DNA of 23,106 nt, taken from Ectocarpus siliculosus. Lineage: Eukaryota; Sar; Phaeophyceae; Ectocarpales; Ectocarpaceae. Under the pieces are notes generated by a model that ran no database searches, had not been told where the DNA came from, and saw only the letters and a program-made list of their open reading frames with translations. Positions 28 through 22,628 of this stretch are shown here, one piece after another. Every line of letters begins with the position of its first letter. Positions within the stretch are counted from its first letter, which is position 1. The stretch is taken from assembly GCA_000310025.1 (NCBI GenBank), contig FN649728.1, forward strand, positions 6,362,450 through 6,385,555, in the 5' to 3' direction. The translations under genes were made by a program, and so were the position numbers.

Positions 28-789
28 CAAGAAACCTAGCATAGAGTTGAGTCCTCCTTATGCAGGCATTAATAGCAATGGGGCTGGTATTGGTAGCACC
101 TTTATCGCTGTGACTCGGCGGGTAAGTCCAAAACCAATCCAGTATCACTGCACATGAAAGCGATTCTCAAACATTTTCGTACACTCGCGCGAAGCGGAGT
201 TGTGTTTGTCTTTTCGCTTAGGAGTACATGCATAGGACCGATCATGAACGTGAGTGGTTCATTACGGAGTCGACGTGAGGCATAGAAGCTGCTCTTTTCG
301 GATGTTTCGTGATAAATGTTGTTCTGAACATTTCCTCGCATACTGCTCCCAAGTTTACATATACACTAGATCACGTGTCGGCTTGGGTGAAACACGCTGG
401 CCACTTCATGAGCATGGCGTAAGGCTTCATGGGGAGTCCGAACGCTTCGTAATCCTGCTGCAGCCTGGGGGTGCGGAAAACACATGCACTAGGAAACGTG
501 AAAAAATCCTCAGGTTCCTCGGAGAAGGGGGGACATTGGTCCAACCTCACCGTGACCCTGTCGACTTTCTACTTTGTTCCGCGTTGTATCACAGATCATC
601 ACTGTGATTCATGGGCATTCTCAACGAGACAGAGATGGTTCACGGTCGCGCGAGTGAATACCCGCGTGACATACTGTAGTTTCATGATTCATGACCTAGA
701 GGGCACCGATCTGATGGACAGAGACGCGCAATGCCATGTGAAGGTGAGGGCACATGAGAAAATAGAGTACATCGGATCAACACAACATT
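28..789. other. No gene recognised left of duplicated unit A
   Basis: Only short overlapping frames on both strands (up to 121 codons, none with a recognised motif). No LRR consensus or paired splice sites were seen. Confidence 0.4.
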
Positions 790-3700
790 TGGCAAGTCGA
801 CTACGGGGGGCACTCAATGAAGAGCCACATACCTAAGGTATACTGCGCTGGAATAGATGCATGTCGGGCAAATCCATGCCAACACGTCATCGAATACACC
901 GTTAGGCGCCACCTGGTGCAATTTCTACTTGGTGGTCGTCCACTAAATCATACCATACAAACCATTATTCGGGCCAGAAACCACCAGGAGTGTGGACCAC
1001 TTCTCCAACGAAGCTCACGTAAACGACCGCGAAACATCTAATCTTACTAGGATACACTGTCGCTACTTCCGCGCAAATACCCCTTGTAGGAGAAGAGAAC
1101 AGCTGCCGCGCTACATAAATCCTTTCGTTGCAGTTCGATATTCTGGATTGCTGGACTACCAAGGCCTGCCCCCCAGTGACATGTTTCCTGAACAACGACG
1201 GCATTATTTCAACATAGATAGCTCTCATTTGGTCAGCATCGTGCGATGCTTGCAGCCTGCATTCGTTCGTGCTTTGAGCCCTCAAAACACAGCGTTTCCC
1301 CCAACCAAATTCATAGGATGAGCAATTCCCGTGCCGTTCACACCCTCGTCCCCACTGAATAAAAGAAGCTCGACCGACTACTGTGGTCGCGATGGCAGCG
1401 CTCTTTGCAAACCTCCAACGTCTGAAAACACTGGCCTGGTCGGCCAACAAAACTAATATCGAACACGCCTCGGCCCCGAAGATGTGCGCGCGTGCAGTTT
1501 CCGAGAGTATGGGAGTTTGTTCCTGACTCAATCGCCGAGTTTGAGCTATGACTCTATTGCTGTTCTAAATGTTTGGCATACTATACTCCTTCGCACGTCT
1601 CGATTGGGCCCATGTATTTCTTGCGAGTGGTTGGTACAAATCACCGAGCACTAGATGTCTAACTACAGTATTCTAGTATGTCGTTCCACTGGAGGTTTAT
1701 CCCCGGAACACCGAAATTCTTTTCTTTGCCTGTGCATAGCGGCGAGAGGTAATCGACACAATGTTGCTGTGAAAACTTTATAACGGCAACTAAACCACAG
1801 CAGCAGCAGTAACACCAGCGGGACCCGATCACTGCGACTCTGAGATTGAGGTTGAAAACCAACTAAAAGTGTACCCATTCTCGCAGTCCTACGAATCTGG
1901 GGAAAGCTCAGTACTCAGCAAATCACGCCTTATCACGACATCAAACTCAAGATCCAGAACTGAACGCGAGCGGTCTAATAGCGGATTCTACTTCCGTTTT
2001 GGACATGATCATTGGATAAAGAACTCCTGTTCAATTTCTGAAAAACAAATAACTTTTTCTCAAAATTAACACGTGGCTTTGTCCGAGTGAGCTGGACACC
2101 ACTGGAGTTGACACAGGTGTTGATCGGAAGCGAGAACCATGCAAAGAATACCTGCGTTTGAAAGAGTGAGACGTTACTTCTGGTGCAGCATACTATTCTA
2201 GATCTCTTCACTTGGGAAAATGCTTGAAAACACGCCAGTCTCCTCGGAGGGGGCTATCGTTGACCCATCGGCGTTCATACTCTTTCACCGATCATTAAAC
2301 ACAAGTGTGGGGTGCGTTCACGACAAGGACTCGTTGGAGCACGCCGGCGTTGGTTAGGGGTTACCTGGGCCATCACTCACCGTTCAGTTTGTTTTGGTGC
2401 AGGTGCAGCTTCTTCAGAGCCGTCAGTCCTCCCAGAGCAGGCGAAATCGGTCCTGAAGCAGGACGCCCACAGCATGCGACGAACGACGGATTAGCCCATG
2501 ACAGGTGGACAAAGTATGCAACATGCCACTCGTTTGCGCTCATCGTACTGGCCCCCGATACAAACGTGTATGAGAAACATGGTGGCGTTCGAAGTAGACG
2601 ACACGGCCAACATCAACCCATCGCACCGCACGGCAACGCTGTGAAGACAAAGAGCCCCACCCTGACAATCGTACGGTAAGCCATGCCCTTCAACGTGCGT
2701 TGGAGTTGCAGGGATATGACAGTTGAAAAAGAAATAAATATAAGAGGTGAGTGGTGGGTCGGGCCGTGTCGCGAGTCTCGTTTATATGGTACGCTGTAAC
2801 TCGGGTGAGCTGATACTCAAGAGGGTCGGGCTCACACAGGCAGGTATAGTCTAACGCAAGGGTGTAACCATGAGCGTATTTTGTCCATGTTGTGCAAAGT
2901 GGCCACCGGTAACCCCAGGGCACCCGCTTCAATTCATGATCATGAGCTTCGGCCATCCCTCCCAATGCATTCAACAGGCGAAGTTTTCTTTCGCCGACGA
3001 CAAAACCAGCCCTCTTTGATTATCGTACGTCATGTCCGTGACGCCACAGGACCTCTTAGCGTCGACCTTGGCACCCATCCCTACGCATGGCAATAGGAAA
3101 ACGTCACGGCGATGGCGCAGAATCGCGAATCTAGCTCACGCGTGATCCCTTTTGGGAACGTCCTCTACTCCAACTCGAGCATTCGATGCATAGACACTTT
3201 CGGGTACTCGGCCAAATACCACAAAACATGCTCTTGTTCTACACGATGACGTTTTCAGCGCAGCCAGCGCCACATCACCTGTTACCAGCCATCACGCCGA
3301 CTAAAATATATGGCACTTTTCGTATTGGAGGAATTTCCCTCGTCGACGTCGGGCGACTTCCCAAACACGTAGTAATCCTTTTTCAGTTGGAATAATTCGA
3401 GGAATACAGCCGGACCCACGCGTTTCAATCACTGAAGAATACACCAGCAGCACCAGGGATTCCCACGTCTGATCCCCGAGTACAGCAACAGAGTGGCCCG
3501 GCGACACCAAGCTTTCAACAACAGACCCGAGAAGGGTACTCGGCACGAAATGTCGATTCCGGCAGCACCCGCCCGCTCATATGTTGCAGCGAATATCAAC
3601 ATTGGAAGTTGACCAACAGTATTTGCGCTTGTTCATTGCTGTAGGACATACACCTGCTAGTCAAGGGTGTGTGATGACCGTTGAGGAGGGATCGTGACCA

Positions 3701-4190
3701 CGGCGAGATTGATATTTCCTAACACGGTACGCGCCAATGATATACTTCGCATCATCAAGGCATACCGTCATCCTCTTGCCGTAGAAAGCGCAGGGACAGC
3801 TATGAGGGGTGACGAATGGACGCCTTTCATCAAAAATACTCCCAGGAACCGGCAAGACCTTGGCCAGAATCGAACAACACCTTGTCAGTCAAGCCTCACC
3901 CAGCTCCCAAGAACACCGTAAAAGTGGTGTGGGAACACTGCCTTAAGCACACTTAGCGACGTCCCTCGTTTTCCCTTTCGTGCCGCTGCTCAGAATTTCA
4001 GGCTACGCCCGACAAAGAGTGTGGGGCAAAGAGCGCGTTTTATGTAGTCGAGACTTCGCAGCTTGCTTGGTACACACCGGGGGGAGACTTCCCAACGTGT
4101 GCTGAGAAACGAGTCCTCGAACTATTTCCTGTGGGGTTGAACTCCAACACAGTCGAAACGCAATCTCACGACCATGAGCTACTCCAGCCA
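790..4190. repeat. Tandem duplicated unit A (about 3.4 kb)
   Basis: Aligns in direct orientation with unit B (about 5040-8620). Matching landmarks include cactcaatga (811 and 5079), gaaaccaccagga (976 and 5256), the LRR exon (2381 and 6524), cttgttctaya (3232 and 7641) and gttsaactccaac (4136 and 8570). The offset grows from about 4268 to 4434 bp through indels. Substitutions are frequent, so the duplication is old. Ends are approximate. Apart from the LRR exon there is no recognisable coding sequence. A minus-strand open frame (965-1531) has a similar-length counterpart in unit B. Confidence 0.8.
2381..2452 (-). CDS. LRR exon A: one 24-residue leucine-rich repeat (in duplicated unit A)
   Basis: This 72-nt exon is phase 1 to phase 1, with acceptor CTGCTTCAG and donor G|GTGAGT. 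It encodes [G]PISPALGG, then LTALKKLHLHQNKLN. The in-frame TGA that follows GTGAG lies in the intron and is not a broken gene. It aligns without gaps to exon B, with 12 of 72 bases different; ten of these changes alter the amino acid. The variable surface is basic here (KK, H, H, K) against acidic in exon B. No further LRR exon was found between this exon and the left edge, so the rest of the gene may lie beyond position 1. Confidence 0.7.
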
Positions 4191-4209
4191 TCAGACCTCA
4201 TCAGACCTC
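4190..4209 (+). repeat. Small direct duplication (catcagacct twice)
   Basis: Two adjacent 10-bp copies lie just beyond the right limit of unit A. It may be a scar of the duplication boundary or simple slippage. Confidence 0.5.
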
Positions 4210-4599
4210 AATAGGTCATCGAAGTCTGGAATGCGTTCGAGTTGCTTCCAAGGGACACCCCCAGACAAAGGTCATTAGTGATTTCTGGCCTCCAAGCGCA
4301 TGGCTTCAGCATCGTTTGGGCGGTGATCGGTCAACTGTGTTCTGCCACAGCTGATGGTCGAGCAGCACATACTATGTACCGTAGATGGATGTTCACGGTC
4401 ACAGCGAAGAATAATCCCCACCAGGACTCTCTATTGTGATTTTTCCTAGAGGGGTTTTGCCGCAAGTTTTTAATTGATAGTTCGACAAGTACTCTATTGG
4501 AATGACCATCGAAACGCCGGTGTATATTCAGGACTATTCTAGTCTGCCTGCTTGGAAATTGGCCGGTCCCCGTGCCTTCGTGGCGCCTCTTTTTCAACC

Positions 4600-4920
4600 A
4601 TGTCCGGAGGCGTTCGCTTCAGCAGGAGGGTCTACCGTGCGAGACATCTACTCCGTGCTGTAGGGTACCTTGAAGATGGTACCCTACAGGTGCAGCGGTT
4701 GACCCCGACGAACCGCAAGCTCACCGAGCAGTCGTTGGTCACAGCAGTTGGGCGTGGATACGGTCACATGGCTTGCAGTGTTTCGGGTTCGGGCGGCAGC
4801 CGGCCGTTGTTATTCGTGAGGGTTTGGTCTGTGGGGGTGATTCATGGCTTCGGTTTCATGTATCCTCTCTTTCCGGGTGTTTTTTTGCGTACTCCACCAC
4901 ATCGTAGTGTGATCGATTGA
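4600..4920 (+). CDS. Hypothetical protein or exon, 106 codons, unrecognised
   Basis: The frame runs from an ATG in good context (ttcaaccATGtcc) to TGA. The first 60 codons read like protein: RARHLLRAVGYLEDGTLQ, then LTPTNRKLTEQSLVTAVGRG, with many C- or G-ending codons. After about codon 70 the translation becomes Val/Phe/Gly-rich, and a GTGAGG donor-like site lies near 4816, so the frame might be an exon ending there. A perfect 12-bp hairpin (4658-4689) lies inside it. It sits in the spacer between the duplicated units and opposite to the LRR gene. I recognise no family. It could be a chance frame. Confidence 0.25.
   Translation: MSGGVRFSRRVYRARHLLRAVGYLEDGTLQVQRLTPTNRKLTEQSLVTAVGRGYGHMACSVSGSGGSRPLLFVRVWSVGVIHGFGFMYPLFPGVFLRTPPHRSVID
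4658..4689. repeat. Perfect 12-bp inverted repeat with 8-nt loop
   Basis: The arms are ctgtagggtacc (4658-4669) and ggtaccctacag (4678-4689), separated by ttgaagat. It is a strong hairpin on either strand, centred in the spacer and within the 4600-4920 frame. Function unknown. Confidence 0.85.
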
Positions 4921-6392
4921 AACTTCGCGTGATTCTGTGTAAAGCCTCTTCCGTGGTTCAAGGCCTGCACGATATCGCTCACAATATCTCAGTACAGGAG
5001 ATGCCATCCATCTCCGTGACGCGAAAAAAAATCTCTACACTAGATCGAAACAAAAGCTGAAAAGTCGATGACGGGAGGCACTCAATGAACAAGGCCTAAC
5101 CTAGATTGATGCCGGCCTGGATGCATCTTGGGCAAATCCAAGCCAGCTTGTCATCAAAATATGTTTTTCGGAACCTGCTGCTTTTCAACTGGATGTCCTT
5201 CACAACGTCATACTATGCCATGGAATGTTTACATAGGGATTAATGGTTCGGGCAAGAAACCACCAGGATTGCATGAAACTTCTCGAACGAAGCTGAAGTG
5301 AAGGGCTGTGAAAAATCCGAAATCTCGTTGGCATTGTTGGTACTTCTCGGATACACCACACCGATGGTTGGAGAAGCCCTAACCTCGCGGGCTAAATTAT
5401 TTCCTTTCAATATTCTGGACAGCCGAGGGCCGCTTCTTCGAACACCATGCCATGTCCTGGACAAAGGTACGTTCTCAAAGCAAGTCCCTCCATGCGTCAC
5501 CATTGTGCGATGTCGGAGCCGGCATTCGTTCTGGCTTTCAGCCCGCGTAAAGCGTTTGCCGCAACGAATTTCGAGGGATGCGCATTCCCGTGGCGTCCTC
5601 ACCCTCGCCCTCCCCCACGATACAATAACTCGATTGACTGCGGTTGTGATGACAGCGCAATTCAAAACCTCCGGGGTCTGACGACATTGGGTTGGTCGGT
5701 CGAAAAGCCCTATAACGAACACTCCCCGGCCTCCAACACATGCACGCGTGAAGATTCTATTTTGGGTTTCGGGATACGCCAAACATCTGGGAATTTGTTC
5801 CTGACCCAATCTGTTCGTTTTGAACTAAGCACATTATCCTCTCGTATGTCTCGATGGGGGTCTTGTACTGTAACGTCTTGCGAGTGGTTGGCGCAACTCC
5901 CGGTGCAGTAAATTTCTAACTAATATGCCGTTCCATAGAGGTTTTCCCTTGAACTCCGAAATTCGCGACTCGAAGCACTACGAACTTGGCGAATGTTCAT
6001 TACTCTGCCAGTCAGTCTTTCTCCGAACATAATACTTCTACGTAGGACCCGTGATGCGCCTGAGCGGTAACGTCGCGGATACGACTTCCGGCATGGACGC
6101 GACCATCATTGAAAATGCTCACTTGTTCAATTTCGCTTGTTTCTAATGTACTATTAAACAGTTGACTACTCCGGTTAGCTGGAAAACACCGATGAAGAGG
6201 CAAGTATGTCGCAGGTGCTGATCGGAAGCGAGAACGATGCAAAGCAGGCTTGAATTCGAAAGAGTGAAACGTCATGCACTTCTGATGAAGCATGAGATTG
6301 TGACAAGGCATCTCTTCACTTGGAAAACGCTTGAAACTACCCCAGTCTCCTCGGTCGGAGAAGGGGCTAATGCGGACCCATCCACACCTTCT

Positions 6393-6462
6393 CACCAATC
6401 ATTCAAAAATATTTTTGGGGCCCCTTTCACCAATCATTCAAAACATTTCTGGGGTGCGACCA
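6393..6462 (+). repeat. Local 35-bp tandem duplication in unit B
   Basis: The motif caccaatcattcaaaa followed by a tttctgggg-like stretch occurs twice with a 35-bp period (starting at 6393 and 6428). Unit A has one version, near 2287, so the copy arose after the large duplication. Confidence 0.7.
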
Positions 6463-6523
6463 CGACATGGATTACCTTGTGGCATATACATGCGTTGGTT
6501 GGGGCACCTGTAGCACCACTCAC

Positions 6524-6595
6524 CGTTCAGTTCGTTTTCGTCCAGCAACAGCTCCTCGAGAGCCGTTAGTCCTCCCAGAGCAGACGGAATCGGTC
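6524..6595 (-). CDS. LRR exon B: one 24-residue leucine-rich repeat (in duplicated unit B)
   Basis: This 72-nt exon is phase 1 to phase 1, with acceptor GCTCTAG and an ideal donor G|GTGAGT. It encodes [G]PIPSALGG, then LTALEELLLDENELN. The repeat surface is strongly acidic (EE, DE, E at the variable positions). Splice sites and frame are intact although the surrounding duplicated DNA has diverged greatly from its partner, which suggests the exon is maintained. Its partner, exon A, lies 4143 bp to the left. Membership of the same gene as exons 1 and 2 is inferred from strand, phase and repeat type. Confidence 0.7.
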
Positions 6596-7146
6596 CTAGA
6601 GCATGACGTGCACAGAATGCGACGAAAGGCGAATTAGCCCATGACAGGTCGACAATGGCATGCAGCATGCAAAGCGTTTACGCCGATCGCACTGGTGTCC
6701 AATACAAAGGTGCATGAGAAATAAGGAAAGTTTACTCGTCGAACAGACAGAATAAACTGCTGTTTATTAGGGTGACAGTTTCGGAGTGTAGTTTTGCTAA
6801 TTGTTCGGAAATTTGGGGTCACCAGGAATGAAAGTAGAACCTCCTGCCATTCCGTTGACAAGAAAGTACGCAGCGGTGTAGCAAGTCGAGTGACGAACGG
6901 GAGCTACAGAGCGTACGGAGAGAAGGAAGGACAGCAGTGGCCGCCCAACGTAGACGGCGGCAGTATTATAGCGAAGTATAAATGAATGGTGGTATTGTAG
7001 GTAGACGGGGACAAAATGGGCTCCTCACCGCACGGCATCGCAAACAGCCCCACGCCAATCGTACAGTAGGTCACGCCCCTCAAACCACGTTGCTATTACA
7101 AGGGCATTACACTTGAAACACAAAATAATAGAAGATGAGTGGTGGG

Positions 7147-7180
7147 CCGCGCCGTGCCGCGCCGTGCCGCGCCGTGCCGC
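7147..7180 (+). repeat. 10-bp minisatellite (gccgtgccgc)n
   Basis: Three exact copies at 7151-7180 preceded by a partial one. The matching site in unit A (near 2760) has a single degenerate copy, so the expansion is specific to unit B. Confidence 0.85.
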
Positions 7181-8743
7181 GCGACTAGTTCAAATGGTAC
7201 GCTGAACCTTGGGTGAGCGGATATTCAAGAGGGTTGGGCTCACACTGGCAGGGATAGTCTTAACAGACGGGTGTAACCATGCACAAATATTGTCCATGTT
7301 GTGAAAATGGCCACGTTCACCTTCAGGCAGCGGCCTCATCATCTCATGAAAATGAGTTTCGGCCTTTCCCCCCATGCGTTCGACAGGCATCATTACGGTA
7401 GCCGACGAGAAACAACCCGCTTCGATTATCGGATGTCATGCCCATGGCGGTACCTGACCCCTGTGCGTCGGCCTTAAAATCCATCCCTAGACAAGGCGAA
7501 AGGAAAATCTCATGGTAATGGTTCCCAATCACGAATCTAGCTCACGTGTGCAACGTTTCGGGAATGACCTCCGAAGCAAACAGGGCCCTTTGATGCGTGT
7601 GCACATTTTCGGGTATCGGCAGTTCGGCGCAAAACATCTTCTTGTTCTATATGAGGACATTTCCAGCATCGCCAGTGACAGTACTTGTCACAAGCGATCA
7701 CGCAGAAGAAAAAGTACATGCACTTTTCATATTGGAGATATTTCCTTTGTGGACGTCGGTCGACGTCTCAAACGCGAGCGGATTCTTCAGTGAGCAACAA
7801 AATTGGAGGAATAGAGCCGGACCCCAGCTGTTTGATTTTTTGAAGGAAACGCGACCAGCACGAGGGATTCCCACGTGAGACCCAGTTTTGCAGCAGTCTG
7901 GCCCGGCGACGCTAAGGTTCCCAGAACAGACCCGAGGCAAGGCACTCGGCAAGAAAGGTCGATTTGGAGTGCACCTGCCCGCGCATATGCATATGTTGCA
8001 GGAAACATCAACGTTGGAAGTTGATCACTGCTACTTGGGCTAGTGTGTTTCGGTAGGACATACATGTGATAGTAACGATTCGTCATGGTTGAAAAGAATT
8101 GATCGTGGCGTCGGCAAGATTGAAGAGGAGTATTTGCGAACACGGTACGCGCCAATGATGTACTACACATCACCGAAGCACACGGACGGCCATCCTCCCG
8201 TTGATAGCAACGGGTAGGAGCGAGGGACGGAGAGTATACTCGTCTCGTCGGATACAATCTATAGAACCGGCAAGACCTCGACAAATCGAGAAACCCCTTG
8301 CCCATCAAGTCAAACCCAGCTCGAACGAACGCCTCGAACGTTAAGTGGGAACAAAACCTCAAGCACACGTGGCGGCCTCTCTCGTTGTTTCCTTTTCGTG
8401 CCGCTGTTCAGAATTTCTGGCTGCCCCCGACAAAGAGCGCGGAGCAAAGTGCGGTTTCGCGGGCACTGGTGAAGACTTCGCCCCTTGCTGCGGGGCACAC
8501 CCCGGGAGGGAATTCCCCAAAAGGCACTGAGAAACCATTCTTCACATTTCCTCATTGTTTTTCTGTGGAGTTCAACTCCAACGAAGTCGAAACGCTATCT
8601 CAAGACCATGGGGTAATCGACATCCTGCTTTCTGATCCTGCTTACGCGATGAAGTAACGGAGAACCACTTCTAGCTGTGTCGGGTTTCAGTTCGCAGCAT
8701 CTGCAAGCCGGAGTGCACTTCCTTGCACGACTCACACTAGCGT

Positions 8744-11874: not shown

Positions 11875-11946
11875 CGGTTAGGTTGTTCTCGCCAAGATTC
11901 AATTTCGTGAGAGCCGTCAGTCTGGCGAACTCCGGTGGAATAACAC
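11875..11946 (-). CDS. LRR exon C: one 24-residue leucine-rich repeat
   Basis: This is an exon of exactly 72 nt, phase 1 to phase 1, with acceptor TTCCCAG and donor GTGAGA. It encodes [G]VIPPEF, then ARLTALTKLNLGENNLT, with the next Gly split by the intron. This is the plant/brown-algal LRR pattern GxIPxxxxxLxxLxxLxLxxNxLx. It sits 1155 nt downstream of exon 2 and continues the repeat begun by ELRENGLSG in the same phase. In the genomic frame the translation runs on past the donor for about 30 codons before stopping, which is ordinary intron read-through. Sequence flanking this exon does not clearly resemble the flanks of the other two LRR exons. Confidence 0.75.
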
Positions 11947-13101: not shown

Positions 13102-13852
13102 CGGACAACCCGTTTTCCCGTAGCTCCAGTTGTGACACCCGACCGTCATCATCCACGGTAACGCCGTACCACTCTCCAAGGGGGGCAGCCGTCCCCCACG
13201 CCGTGCTTGTTGTCCATGACGGGCCGTTCGTAGCGATGAACAAGGCTAACAGAGCAGCGCGGTCGGTCGAAGCATCTCGCGTTGGGTTGAGGTCCTTCCC
13301 CGATCCAAGAAGAATCTTGATCACGTGGGTCTTGTAGCGGTCGATATCCACATCCTTTTCACGCGCCAATTGACACAGATCCAACATAGTCTGGCTTTCA
13401 AGCTTTGCCTCGACCCCCGTGGCGGGTGCACGAAAGAGGGCTTTGCCGGACCCTAGTAGAATCTGGATCACCTCGTCTTTGCTGGTACATCTGGCGACAT
13501 CTACATCGACCTCATCGGCCAACTCGAACAGGTCTCTCATCGTCTGACTAGCAAGCAACGCCCTTGCCGCAACGCCTCCGATCTCGGGATACATGCGATA
13601 AATCCCGGGCTCGGTCGCACAGAGTGTGCCGAAGGCTGGGAGGAGGCGCTTGTCGAGGTCAGGCAAGACTGGTTCAGCCACCGGGGGAAGGGCGCATACA
13701 CAAGACACAAGGTTGAGGAGAAATGCCAAGACCTTCGGTCCATCGGCCGAAGCAGCGCGGGACGAGTCCACCCAGAGCGGAGCCAGGACGTCCACGATGT
13801 TCACTAGCGTCCCGTTTACCGTGAACTGTTTGGCTTCAAGCGGAGAATCCGT
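13102..13852 (-). CDS. Exon 2: helical two-repeat region and LRR N-terminal cap
   Basis: This exon has 751 nt, phase 0 at its 5' end and phase 1 at its 3' end (TCC G|GTAGGT). It supplies residues 453-702 of the joined product. After a hydrophobic helical stretch (VNIVDVLAPLWVD, VLAFLLNLV) come two copies of a roughly 36-residue repeat: SQTMRDLFELADEVDVD with KDEVIQILLGSGKAL, and SQTMLDLCQLAREKDVD with HVIKILLGSGKDL. Their helix-loop-helix pattern recalls SAP/HeH-like folds, a weak resemblance. The last 56 residues are an LRR cap of brown-algal type: TDRAALLALFIATNGPSW, a central Trp, EWYGVTVDDDGRVSQL, then the first repeat ELRENGLSG. A CDD or HMM search should hit the LRR superfamily. The frame is open for about 300 codons, although only the part before the donor is called as exon. 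Confidence 0.8.
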
Positions 13853-14182: not shown

Positions 14183-15538
14183 CTTGCTCGCGAAGACGTA
14201 GCCGGCTGAAACAGCTATGACGGCCGCGCTAAGCTTGACATCGACGGTGTGACCCTGGACCAAGGCTGTCATGGCTTTGCTGTGCGCCACGTCCAAGAAC
14301 CGCACGTTGCCACCGCTGGCTGTGAAATTCTTGAGAGCCATCTCTGCCTCTTTCAGGGGCGCGCTCTGTGCAAGACCAAGAGGATCAAGAGCAACGTTGG
14401 AACCGTCTGAGGTCTCAGTCTGTAGTATCGTTTCCGTCATTTTCGACGAACTCCTGCAATTGTCGACATCAACCAATTGCACTTTCGCTCGTTTGATACA
14501 GTGCGAAAGCTGTGACAACAGGCGTGCACCGATCAGTGGGCACAGGTTTCTACCCGATGTCATCGACACTATACATTCGGATGCGGTAGTGGAACAACAG
14601 GTCCTAGACGTTCTGGAGGACGTTTTACTTGCCATCAGGGTCTCGATGCCCCGGTGCGTAGCCGCCAACCCTTGCGTGAAGCTCTTGAAAAACAGCTCGT
14701 TCTCCGATCGACACTCGTCCACCGATGCGCTCACGCTTGCTAGGTCCCACTTGACGTCGGCGACTTGAGAACGAGCGCCTTTCAACTGCGCCATGGTAGC
14801 GTCATGCGAGCTCGCCACATCGTACTTCACGCCGTGCACTTGTTGCTCAACCCCAGCGAGCTGTGCTATGGTAGCCTCGCGGGCGGTCGCTACGTCGTGC
14901 TTTACGCCGTGTACTTGTCGCTCAACCTCGGCAAGCTGTGCCGTGGTAGCCTTCCGGGCATCCGCGATATCACTCCTTACGCCGTGTACTTGACGACCAA
15001 CACCGGCGAGCTGTCCTGTGGTGGCTTCGTGGGCGTTCGCTATGTCGTGCTTCACGCCGTGTACTTGTTGCGCGACCCCGGAAAGCTGTGCTGTGGTAGC
15101 CTTCCGGGCATCCGCGATATCACTCCTTACGCCGTGTACTTGACGACCAACGCCGGCGAGCTGTGCTGTGGTGGCTTCGTGAGCGTTCGCTATATCGTGC
15201 TTCACGCCGTGTACTTGTTGCGCGACCCCGGAAAGCTGTGCCGTGGTGGCCTTCCGGGCATCCGCGATATCACTCCTTACGCCGTGTACTTGACGACCAA
15301 CGCCGGCGAGCTGTGCTGTGGTGGCTTCGTGGGCGTTTGCTGCGTCACGCCTCGCCCCGAGAACTTCGGAATGTGCCACGTGTCGCTCTGCCTTGGCGGC
15401 CTCACCGAGCGCCCCCAGCTCGCCGCTCAACGTTTCCAGGCCACGCCGTGTCTGTTGCAGTTGGCGCAAGGAGCATGGTGGTAGAAGGCAGACGCGCAAA
15501 CACGAAGTCAGAGTTGAGCCCGGGCATTGTTGCGACAT
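14183..15538 (-). CDS. Exon 1: coiled-coil N-terminal region with nine 25-residue repeats
   Basis: An open frame of 452 codons runs from ATG at 15538 to a donor AAG|GTGAGC at 14183/14182 (phase 0). A TGA lies five codons upstream in frame, so this ATG is the first possible start. An alternative is that the exon begins at a CAG acceptor at 15452-15454, which would drop the odd Cys-rich first 29 residues. Residues 47-271 form nine 25-residue repeats around the motif QVHGV. Hydrophobic positions fall at 6, 9, 13, 16, 20, 23 and 27, a 3-4-3-4-3-4-4 spacing (two heptads plus one hendecad), as expected of a left-handed coiled coil with one stutter per repeat. Residues 305-330 are Ser/Thr/Cys-rich. 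Residues 434-450 are hydrophobic (AAVIAVSAGYVF) but short and next to the splice junction. No catalytic motif is seen. It probably acts in oligomerisation (inference). Confidence 0.75.
14790..15360 (-). repeat. 75-bp tandem repeats inside exon 1, organised in 150-bp higher-order units
   Basis: Tandem 75-bp units encode the 25-residue coiled-coil repeats. Two unit types alternate (GVGRQVHGVRSDIADARK and GVAQQVHGVKHDIANAHE), giving a 150-bp higher-order repeat that recurs at exactly 14950, 15100 and 15250. The first two 150-bp copies differ at only a handful of bases, so the amplification is recent compared with the outer, degenerate units. No unit shifts the reading frame. Unequal crossing-over could change the coiled-coil length in steps of 25 or 50 residues. 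Confidence 0.9.
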
Positions 15539-19290: not shown

Positions 19291-19362
19291 GATTTGTTGT
19301 AGGAGCAGACGGAAACAAATCAAGGTTTATTGAAAGTAGTCGAATTTGTAACGTCGTTGTTA

Positions 19363-19417
19363 GGCCACTTGTTAAGCTGTCCTTTTTTGGGCTGTCCCTT
19401 TTCTAAAAAAGGGACAA
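19363..19417 (+). repeat. Left terminal inverted repeat of the Harbinger-like element
   Basis: Perfect over 42 bp with the right end and near-perfect for about 13 bp further. It contains an internal hairpin, so single strands could fold on themselves as well as pair with the other end. Confidence 0.85.
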
Positions 19418-19495
19418 CTGACCAAGAACCACTTGTTACGTGGTCTTTTTTTGCATTTTTGAACCTCCCGAAAAGGGACAGCGAAAAAAGATCGC

Positions 19496-19536
19496 CCCAT
19501 CCTGTCCCTTTTTGGGCAACTTTGTGACAGGATGGG
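19496..19536. repeat. 11-bp inverted repeat inside the transposon
   Basis: The arms are cccatcctgtc (19496-19506) and gacaggatggg (19526-19536) with a 19-nt loop. It lies subterminally in the Harbinger-like element and may be structural. Confidence 0.7.
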
Positions 19537-19749
19537 ACGGTCCTTTTTTGTTGTCCTTTTTCTGTCACAACACATGACACTTGCCCACAAACTTGAATAT
19601 CTCGACGGATGATCCCCGCAAACTCTAACGGTATTCGCACGAGTCGTGTCATGTGACTGGTACGGAGTCAGTAGCCTCGGCGATAGACGTAATGTTGTCA
19701 TTCGGCTGACCAGGTGGACAACCCGATGTGTGCGGCAAACAAGCGGCAA

Positions 19750-20420
19750 ACGAGCCGAAAGAGCCTGGACGCACCAGCGGTGGGTCTTTTTGGTGCACAG
19801 TCAACTTTTGCGAACCCAACTTCTGGGCGACCTATAGCGTCCTGGTCTGTATCAATCACCACACAAGACGAATCAGACGCACAGCTCATGGATACCTTTG
19901 TCATCGCTGTTGCTTCGGTGTGTGACGAGGGAGCATCGATGAACCAAAGTTGCAACACGGGGAAAAAGAACAAAAAATATGCTTGGAGACGCGGCGGGTC
20001 ATTTTTCCCGCTTGTCCACCACTCTCGGGCTCACAACCTCTGACCGCCCGTCAGCCTTCTGGTCTGTATCAACCACCACACAAGACGGACCATACACATA
20101 GCTCGTGGCGGATACCTTTGTCATCGCTGTTGTTTCAGTGTGTGGCGAGGGAGCATCCATGAACCAAAGTTGCGGCATGGGCAAAAAAGAGCAAACAAAG
20201 CTGGTTGTTGGCGCGGTGGGGTTTTTCAAGGTGCTGTTGACTCTCGCCACCTCAGTTGCCGTGCCTCCCACTGCCCTGTGGTCTCGATCAGCCGCCACAC
20301 AAGGCGGACCAAGCACCCAGCTCGCGGGGGATAGCTTTACAGTTGCTGATGCTTCGCTCTGTGCGGAGATATCACCGAAAAACCAACTCGGTGCCAAGGT
20401 ACTCATTGTGTGACGAACGG
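19750..20420 (-). repeat. Three direct repeats of about 218 bp inside the transposon, open on the minus strand
   Basis: Landmarks tggtct, then gccaccacacaag-like, then gatacctttgtcatcgctgt and catgaaccaaagttgc recur with spacings of 217 and 219 bp. On the minus strand, two units share one open frame (20484-19999) and the third lies in another (19973-19698). The peptides align: QLWFMDAPSPHTETTAMTKV, QLWFIDAPSSHTEATAMTKV and a more distant SWFFGDISAQSEASATVKL, each followed by a Cys-Val-rich segment (SCVVVDTDQ, SCVVIDTDQ, PCVAADRDH). The repeat is about 73 residues. The third (20.3 kb) is the most divergent. I recognise no family. It may be captured host coding sequence or transposon-internal repeats. 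Confidence 0.6.
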
Positions 20421-20525
20421 CCGTTGCACTTGTTGTTGCAGGGTCATTTTTTTTGGCGGATGAGCAAAAAGGATCGACCAGCACCGTAACAAGTGGGTCA
20501 TCTTTTTGCTAGATTCTTTTTTGGT

Positions 20526-20580
20526 TCGTCCCTTTTTGAGAAAAGGGACAGCCCAAAAAAGGACAGCTTAACAAGTGGCC
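20526..20580 (-). repeat. Right terminal inverted repeat of the Harbinger-like element
   Basis: Reverse complement of the left end, 42 bp perfect at 20539-20580. A TTA follows immediately at 20581-20583. Confidence 0.85.
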
Positions 20581-20583
20581 TTA

Positions 20584-21211: not shown

Positions 21212-21425
21212 GGAGCCGGTCGCCCCGGTGGTCTAGTCGGTATCCTCGAAAGTTCGTGTTACACAGAGGGAAGAAAGGGCTGAACTCTTCCCGCATTAAA
21301 AATCGAACGCAACATACCGCAGGAGGGCAGGGTAGAGAGGGGCTCTTCTGTTTGACCACGGGTTGGAGTAAACGGCACTAGTGCTGTGAGGGCTGATTCG
21401 AAGTGAAGACAAAAAAAGAAAAAAG
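21212..21425 (+). mobile_element. SINE copy 1 (plus strand), tRNA-related head shortened
   Basis: It begins with a GC-rich leader and a pol III A-box-like motif tggtctagtcgg (21229-21240). The body matches the minus-strand copy at 22.3-22.6 kb, and it ends in an A-rich tail (aaaaaaagaaaaaag). Direct repeats atgccttggta (21201-21211) and atgcctcggta (21426-21436) flank it, an 11-bp target duplication with one mismatch. This shows retroposition. About 104 bp present in the other copy, including the B-box-like motif, are missing here just after the A box. Confidence 0.8.
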
Positions 21426-21436
21426 ATGCCTCGGTA
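21426..21436 (+). repeat. 3' target-site duplication of SINE copy 1
   Basis: atgcctcggta directly follows the A-rich tail and pairs with 21201-21211. Confidence 0.7.
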
Positions 21437-22278
21437 CTTGTAGTACCTTGCCGAACACACCCTTGCAATATACCACACCACCGGGGACAACACTTTGTTT
21501 AGGTTTCAATAAATATAGTAATGTCTAGTCTAGATGGCCCACCGATGACTTTCTCATCCCAGAGGTGGGGTAAATAAGCCTGCCACGTCACCTGGGATCT
21601 CAGCCAACTCAAGAATCGAGTCGCAACACAAGAACCGTAATTGGAGTGTGTGGTTGATGCACTGTACTCACAGCACAAACCAGCGCACAGCAGCTGAGGA
21701 AGGGGAACAGGACGGCGGGGACAGATGAAAAATCCCTCTGCACAGCCTCAATCACGTGCTGCAAGGACACACGAGTTCGTCATACCTTTGGGAGGGGCCT
21801 TCCACAGAAACAACGTACTTTTCCAGGCGGCTCCGAGGACGTTGATGTTGTACCTGGTGCAGAACTACTGCTGGATATCTCTGTATCTCTAGATTTACAC
21901 CATCAGCCTGGGACAGGGGACAGTGCCACTTCTTTGTTGTACGTACGTTAGAGATGTATCGGAGGCCTTCATTGGATGAACGAAGATAGGAAGCTGGTAG
22001 AACAAAATCTTGCGGACCCTTGTCCGGCAGCAGAGCGCCCAGCTCTCCTGTTCCTACGTACGATTGCGCCGGCATGGCAATGTTTGCAACGTGAAATGAG
22101 TGAGCGACTTCTGTGTCAAAATGCACGACAACGCAGTGACAAGAAACTACCGCCAAAGAAGCAACGCTCTGACAGAAGGGTGCTTGTTTTTCCGGCGCTG
22201 GTGCACGGATGTTTCATCGTGTAGGGTTCCACTGCCGAATGCACCTCGATGCCAACATTCGCACGAGGCCGAGCTTCT
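21437..22278. other. Interval between the two SINE copies
   Basis: It contains the third copy of the dispersed repeat (21555-21770). The rest has short frames only (for example 22156-21752 on the minus strand), with no recognised motif. Confidence 0.4.
21555..21770 (+). repeat. Third, diverged copy of the 180-bp repeat and its downstream flank
   Basis: It starts catcccagaggtggggta, a broken version of the 18-bp palindrome at 18827. It then follows the same order of landmarks as 19007-19280, ending with the cagcagctgaggaagg segment. Direct orientation, 2.5 kb from unit 2. Confidence 0.55.
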
Positions 22279-22628
22279 ACTATTTATTTTCTTCCTTTGT
22301 ATTTTCTTTTTTTTCTTTTTGTTGTCTTCGCTTCAAATCAGCGCTCACAGCACTAGTAGTGCCGTTTACTCCAACCCGTGGTCAAACAGAAGAGCCCCTC
22401 TCCACCCTCCCCTCCTGCGGTGATTTGCCTTCGATTTTTAATGCAAGAAGAGTTCAGCCCTCTCTTCCCTCTGTGTACACACGAACCAGCGCTATCCACT
22501 ACGCCAGGAGCGGAAGCGAGAGAAAAACTCACTTTCCAAGGAAAGCTCGCTTACGCCGGAATTTGAGCCCCTGACCTGGCCTCTAGAAGGTTTCGAGGAT
22601 GCCAACTAGACCACCGGGGCGACCGGTT
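22279..22628 (-). mobile_element. SINE copy 2 (minus strand), fuller tRNA-derived head
   Basis: Read on the minus strand it starts near 22628 with ggtcgccccgg, an A-box-like tggtctagttgg (22613-22602) and a B-box-like ggctcaaattcc (22569-22558). These are about 32 nt apart, the spacing found in tRNAs. A second tRNA-like stretch follows, tggcgtagtggatagcgc (about 22504-22487), which resembles the start of an arginine tRNA. After the shared body it ends in a long A-rich tail (22325-22279). It is the inverse of SINE copy 1. Clear target duplications were not found. The boundaries are approximate. Confidence 0.75.
22558..22613 (-). promoter_or_regulatory. Internal pol III promoter-like A and B boxes of SINE copy 2
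   Basis: tggtctagttgg and ggctcaaattcc fit the tRNA A- and B-box consensus with small deviations and tRNA-like spacing. A clean cloverleaf could not be drawn, so this is a tRNA-derived promoter and not a tRNA gene. Confidence 0.6.

Follow-up and report, generated by a model that had tools for sequence, protein, structure and literature searches.

Results

LRR exons and the predicted gene at the locus

The DNA analysed here, called the window throughout, is a 23,106-nucleotide stretch of the Ectocarpus siliculosus genome (C3:6362450-6385555; genome 189 Mb), and the coordinates of its features are collected in Table 1. It contains three short exons, designated A, B and C, each of which encodes exactly one leucine-rich repeat (LRR), and since their borders share a common phase, gain or loss of such an exon leaves the reading frame intact. 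Two further exons are predicted, and joining all five yields a single open frame of 774 residues. The putative first coding exon is built around seven 25-residue (75-base) repeats, seen at the DNA level as a tandem repeat at 14812-15341 with 7.1 copies, which also has a 150-base higher period. When this coiled-coil-like frame was compared with Pfam, 17 weak matches were returned at E <= 0.1, all under the cut-offs, and several of these were to coiled-coil proteins. The other predicted exon, in which an upstream domain is followed by an LRR N-cap, ends in a phase compatible with exons C, B and A, and it matched 0 Pfam families at E <= 0.1. Genome-wide, the N-cap has at least 69 matches, while the upstream domain has 7, at 6 places including the window's own.

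Table 1. Coordinates of features in the window
Feature	Position	Strand	Description
LRR exon A	2381..2452	-	72 bases, phase 2, open frame, AG/GT; protein PISPALGGLTALKKLHLHQNKLN
LRR exon B	6524..6595	-	72 bases, phase 2, open frame, AG/GT; protein PIPSALGGLTALEELLLDENELN
LRR exon C	11875..11946	-	72 bases, phase 2, open frame, AG/GT; protein VIPPEFARLTALTKLNLGENNLT
Predicted exon, upstream domain then LRR N-cap	13102..13852	-	ALLALFIATNGPSWTT...LELRENGLS; open frame, AG before, GT after
Predicted first coding exon, coiled-coil-like, putative start	14183..15538	-	open frame ending at GTGAGC
Repeat unit with exon A	775..4184	-	aligns with 5043-8618 in four blocks (blastn)
Repeat unit with exon B	5043..8618	-	aligns with 775-4184 in four blocks (blastn)

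Exons A and B each lie in a larger repeat unit, and in blastn the aligned blocks of the two units are 67-72% identical when gap columns are included. The exon B unit contains, at 7146-7182, 3.7 copies of a 10-base tandem repeat (GCCGCGCCGT), and none was reported in the exon A unit. Because 5.3 kb separate C from B and 4.1 kb B from A, and the nearest further copy found lies ~18 kb beyond, some of these units may not be spliced together. Two inverted-repeat structures were also noted in the window. At 19362-20581, 54-base inverted arms (98% identical) stand 1112 bases apart around three repeats with ~220-base spacing, an arrangement that looks like a DNA-transposon-type element, and at 21260-22477 a pair of 121-base arms in inverted orientation (93%), separated by 976 bases, adjoins a second inverted pair on its inner side.

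Exons A and B differ at all six variable core positions

The borders of the two exons are nearly the same, reading tgcttcag/GACCG...AACG/gtgagt for A and tgctctag/GACCG...AACG/gtgagt for B. The first-pass annotation had claimed that A and B differ at every variable position of the LxxLxLxxNxL core and at none of the structural ones, and we found exactly this: the x positions 13, 14, 16, 18, 19 and 21 are all unlike, and the leucine and asparagine positions 12, 15, 17, 20 and 22 are all alike (5/5). A recount also reproduced its hand count of 12 differences in 72 bases, which leave 8 of 23 residues unlike, two of these eight replacements (S3P and P4S) falling outside the core. Its division of the twelve into ten replacement and two silent changes, however, did not stand; averaging over mutational paths gives 9.25 non-synonymous and 2.75 synonymous changes, the three-base change CAC -> TTG behind H16L having been counted as three replacements.

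The pair was then set against the other LRR exons of the genome. Among all 36,046 pairs that can be formed from the 269 intact exons of the fetched loci, 10,739 (29.8%) are unlike at all six x positions and alike at the five core positions, and the same is true of 13 of the 599 pairs (2.2%) with a divergence comparable to that of A and B (8-16 base differences), most such pairs being unlike at three to five x sites. A and B are a tidy, hand-picked example, and the pattern itself is family-wide. In net charge over the six x sites, B (-5) ranks first in acidity among the 269 intact exons and A is among the 15 at +3 or above, so the charge swing from A to B is extreme. The 269 exons scatter roughly evenly about zero, and the shift from basic to acidic that had been annotated, although correct for this pair, is no family trend.

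We rejected the A/B pair as a stand-alone test of selection, given that it offers too few sites and that its intron figure depends on the alignment. Replacements at the x positions amount to 7.25 in 15.8 sites, and to 5.2 in 10.5 at the four positions 14, 16, 18 and 19, while intron divergence is 38% by global alignment or, calculated from the 646 mismatches and ~2,049 identities of the local blast blocks, ~24%. Evidence for selection from this pair alone is weak and inconclusive, being unclear against the higher intron estimate.

Four x positions change faster than neutral DNA

The comparison of x positions with scaffold and neutral sites was therefore made over a larger set of exons from this single genome (Ectocarpus), the x positions being fixed in advance from the motif of the earlier annotation. 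A strict scan recovered 122 single-LRR phase-2 exons of 72 bases from 22 of 23 sequences scanned, from which 23 disjoint pairs with both flanks alignable, none containing a window exon, were formed. In this first set, divergence was 0.251 for x replacements, 0.013 for the scaffold, 0.101 for synonymous sites and 0.087 for introns, and the ratio of x to synonymous was 2.52 (1.96-3.38). After the addition of 13 further pieces, a profile search (nhmmer) gave 446 matches, of which the 316 with at least 45 of 72 positions covered and E <= 0.05 were classified (269 intact, 47 broken). Pairs were sought among 313 of these 316, requiring ~72% matches in each 60-base flank, and from the resulting 533 pairs disjoint ones were taken with the closest introns first, providing a main set of 76 pairs of intact exons, disjoint and alignable in both introns, again without the window exons.

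Changes in the 76 pairs numbered 225.0 in 1107 x replacement sites, 634 in 8267 intron sites, 104 in 1377 synonymous sites and 27 in 1242 scaffold sites. Relative to introns, replacement in x codons was 2.65 (95% 2.23-3.13), the scaffold 0.28 (0.19-0.40) and other codons 0.43 (0.31-0.56). Picking pairs by intron similarity may depress the intron figure, but the synonymous rate, which lies outside that selection, agrees with it at 0.98 (0.77-1.23) of intron. Synonymous change inside x codons stood at 1.10 (0.74-1.51); since these sites are not raised, local hypermutation of the x codons is disfavoured. Examined codon by codon, only positions 14, 16, 18 and 19 exceeded the intron rate after Bonferroni correction for 23 codons, their rates being 2.9 to 4.2 times as high, with P from 1.3e-9 to 2.4e-21 by a binomial that treats sites as independent, the bootstrap over pairs being the safer figure. 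Position 13 was at 1.50 times intron (uncorrected P 0.03) and position 21 at 1.10. For the four sites together the ratio was 3.71 (2.21-5.52) in the 12 pairs with both exons in loci that have a Roc match, and 3.47 (2.87-4.15) in the 58 pairs with neither exon in such a locus.

Hence purifying selection acts on the scaffold, and residues 14, 16, 18 and 19 change faster than neutral DNA. The suggestion that the pattern reflects selection for altered ligand recognition was supported in part, insofar as x replacements exceed intron, synonymous and scaffold change in both the 76 and the 23 pairs; it was too wide in embracing every x position, because only these four exceed the intron rate after correction and sites 13 and 21 do not.

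The copies of exon A and alternative explanations

A DNA search with exon A and its flanks found six places, namely A, B and four others, and all six are open 72-base exons bounded by AG and GT. As the pair pipeline yielded only 1 pair from this family, the six copies were aligned instead. The introns of A differ by 19-20% from those of copies D and E, less than from those of B at either estimate, and these closer A, D and E introns carry only 8-11 gaps in 865-883 bases. Between D and E, 7.0 of 10.5 replacement sites at the four positions are changed with introns 16% different. Over the three disjoint pairs A/B, D/E and F/G, replacement at the four positions is 18.8 in 30.5 sites, compared with an intron divergence of 36% (P 0.0025); for the scaffold it is 1.0 in 45.5 sites. 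The F/G introns are 58% different and barely alignable, which makes the pooled intron figure too high, and therefore the four-site comparison is cautious whereas the scaffold and indel comparisons are generous. Elsewhere, on the minus strand of C13:1372893-1488195, nine places finish with virtually one LRR exon tail, eight matching exactly and the ninth differing by a single base, a set that perhaps reflects a recent amplification.

Could the x positions merely be free to vary while leucines and asparagines are held? Such relaxed constraint would account for A and B taken alone, where the x positions have diverged about as far as the higher intron estimate, and also for sites 13 and 21, which change at about the neutral rate; we nevertheless regard it as very unlikely, since rates of 2.9 to 4.2 times intron at sites 14, 16, 18 and 19 are beyond what relaxation can produce and the synonymous rate equals that of introns. 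Of all the explanations weighed here we give least credence to replacement of exons without their flanks, by shuffling or gene conversion, which would inflate exon over intron divergence. Exon shuffling has been published for such exons (PMC11378527), and one locus carries near-identical exons on both its strands, but replacement should also have raised synonymous and scaffold divergence, which were seen at 0.98 and 0.28 of intron, with 1.10 for synonymous sites in x codons.

A different doubt concerns the gene itself, which might be a decaying cluster of copies that no longer works as one gene. Long introns, the scattering of A-like and C-like exons over ~100 kb of the contig, all on one strand, and the lack of a nearby Roc match among the matches listed all fit decay. 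Against it stand the intact frames and splice borders of all six A-like places, the 1.0 replacement in 45.5 scaffold sites of the three disjoint pairs and the joining of the five predicted window exons into one open 774-residue frame; the exons also lack indels (P 0.005 if each of the three intron alignments is accepted as it stands), but with so few gaps in the closer A, D and E introns this adds modest support only. We judge decay unlikely, though less so than the two explanations above.

LRR exons on the opposite strand

Intact LRR exons were present on both strands in 18 of the 22 pieces in which the sense strand had been assigned and at least one exon was intact, a share that is no estimate for the genome, as most of the pieces L023-L035 were chosen for mixed or rich pattern matches. 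Opposite-strand exons are interleaved within single gene spans (L003, L004, L005, L023, L030 and others), often a few hundred bases apart. The sense strand was taken from N-cap and Roc matches, except in L035, where the majority decided, and in L027, where the N-cap is ~18 kb away. Antisense exons were broken in 32 of 118 cases and sense exons in 11 of 173, leaving 86/118 and 162/173 intact, respectively (Fisher P 1.4e-6). With stricter matches, 160/169 sense and 83/107 antisense exons were intact (P 3.6e-5), in another stricter set 152/158 and 73/87 (P 0.001), and by arithmetic without L035 and L027, 151/161 and 82/112.

Scaffold divergence relative to introns was 0.20 (0.09-0.33) in 45 sense pairs versus 0.73 (0.38-1.13) in 29 antisense pairs, broken exons included in the latter, and in the same pairs the x excess over intron was 3.13 versus 1.92. 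For 22 intact antisense pairs the scaffold stood at 0.34 (0.13-0.63) and x codons at 2.01, and for 46 mixed-strand pairs the scaffold was 0.31. That antisense exons form a reserve, turned into new receptors through germline or somatic inversion, is allowed by the 86 of 118 that are intact and by their raised x rate (1.92 times intron), but it is improbable, and we rejected an active reserve given that antisense exons are broken more often and have a looser scaffold. The greater breakage and looser scaffold favour antisense exons as short-lived relics of past inversions. Because the scaffold is at 0.34 in intact antisense and 0.31 in mixed pairs, antisense exons may have been under selection until a recent inversion, or may be used occasionally. 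In the part of Teng et al. 2024 (PMC11378527) drawn on here and in the literature searched, nothing relevant to strand or inversion of LRR exons was found, and we claim no novelty.

Discussion

Taken together, A and B very probably belong, as single-repeat exons, to an LRR gene of the exon-shuffling kind found in brown algae, in which four x residues have probably been selected for changed binding. Judging from the published model and general LRR geometry, residues 14, 16, 18 and 19 would line the concave beta-sheet face, and it is because of this presumed position that we infer selection to have acted on binding, the target probably being pathogens or other non-self. Repeats would be duplicated together with their introns, after which selection for new binding would drive the copies apart, as in immune receptors. 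The predicted product would be a protein of coiled-coil plus LRR that has a role in recognition and itself lacks a GTPase domain.

We rejected assignment of the gene as an LRR-ROCO, since no Roc domain (PF08477) lies nearby among the matches listed. Of these matches (at least 54 genome-wide) none falls between C3:6.27 and 6.39 Mb, and the closest C3 match, at 6659001, lies on the opposite strand, although a divergent domain could escape the model. COR (PF16095) gave one match genome-wide, on C17, the model being too weak in this genome to discriminate.

Selection at the four sites of such exons is already published (PMC11378527). What the introns add, used as the exons' own neutral yardstick, is support for the claim that selection at four residues of the binding face diversifies such LRR exons, and this support covers loci with a detected ROC domain as well as loci without one. 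The measured fate of opposite-strand LRR exons bears on the recombination proposed for such genes in brown algae.

Among known systems, the NB-ARC-TPR genes of brown algae, candidate immune receptors that combine TPR repeats with an NB-ARC domain, resemble the window gene in having one repeat per exon; the two window frames scanned with Pfam gave no TPR or NB-ARC match. These genes are also mentioned in Teng et al. 2024 (PMC11378527). The same article mentions 15 non-ROCO sequences with shuffling LRR exons in Saccharina japonica, which are alike in having such exons without ROC-COR but consist mostly of LRR motifs only, whereas the window gene has an extra N-terminal region. For brown-algal ROCO genes it reports exon shuffling of 72-bp phase-2 LRR exons, with positive selection at sites 14, 16, 18 and 19 on the concave face, which its authors call consistent with Zambounis et al. 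2012; its test relied on PAML site models, ours on introns. The window gene differs from the LRR-ROCO genes in lacking a nearby Roc match and in carrying N-terminal coiled-coil-like 25-residue repeats, and it shares the brown-algal shuffling-LRR exon kind while standing, as far as the search can see, outside ROCO. Exons A, B and C fit the published exons in being 72 bases long, in phase 2 and of one LRR each, A and B differ at all four selected sites, and because the same four sites are selected in the Ectocarpus exon family as in Teng et al. 2024 (PMC11378527), the window gene can be regarded as kin of the published brown-algal exon kind.
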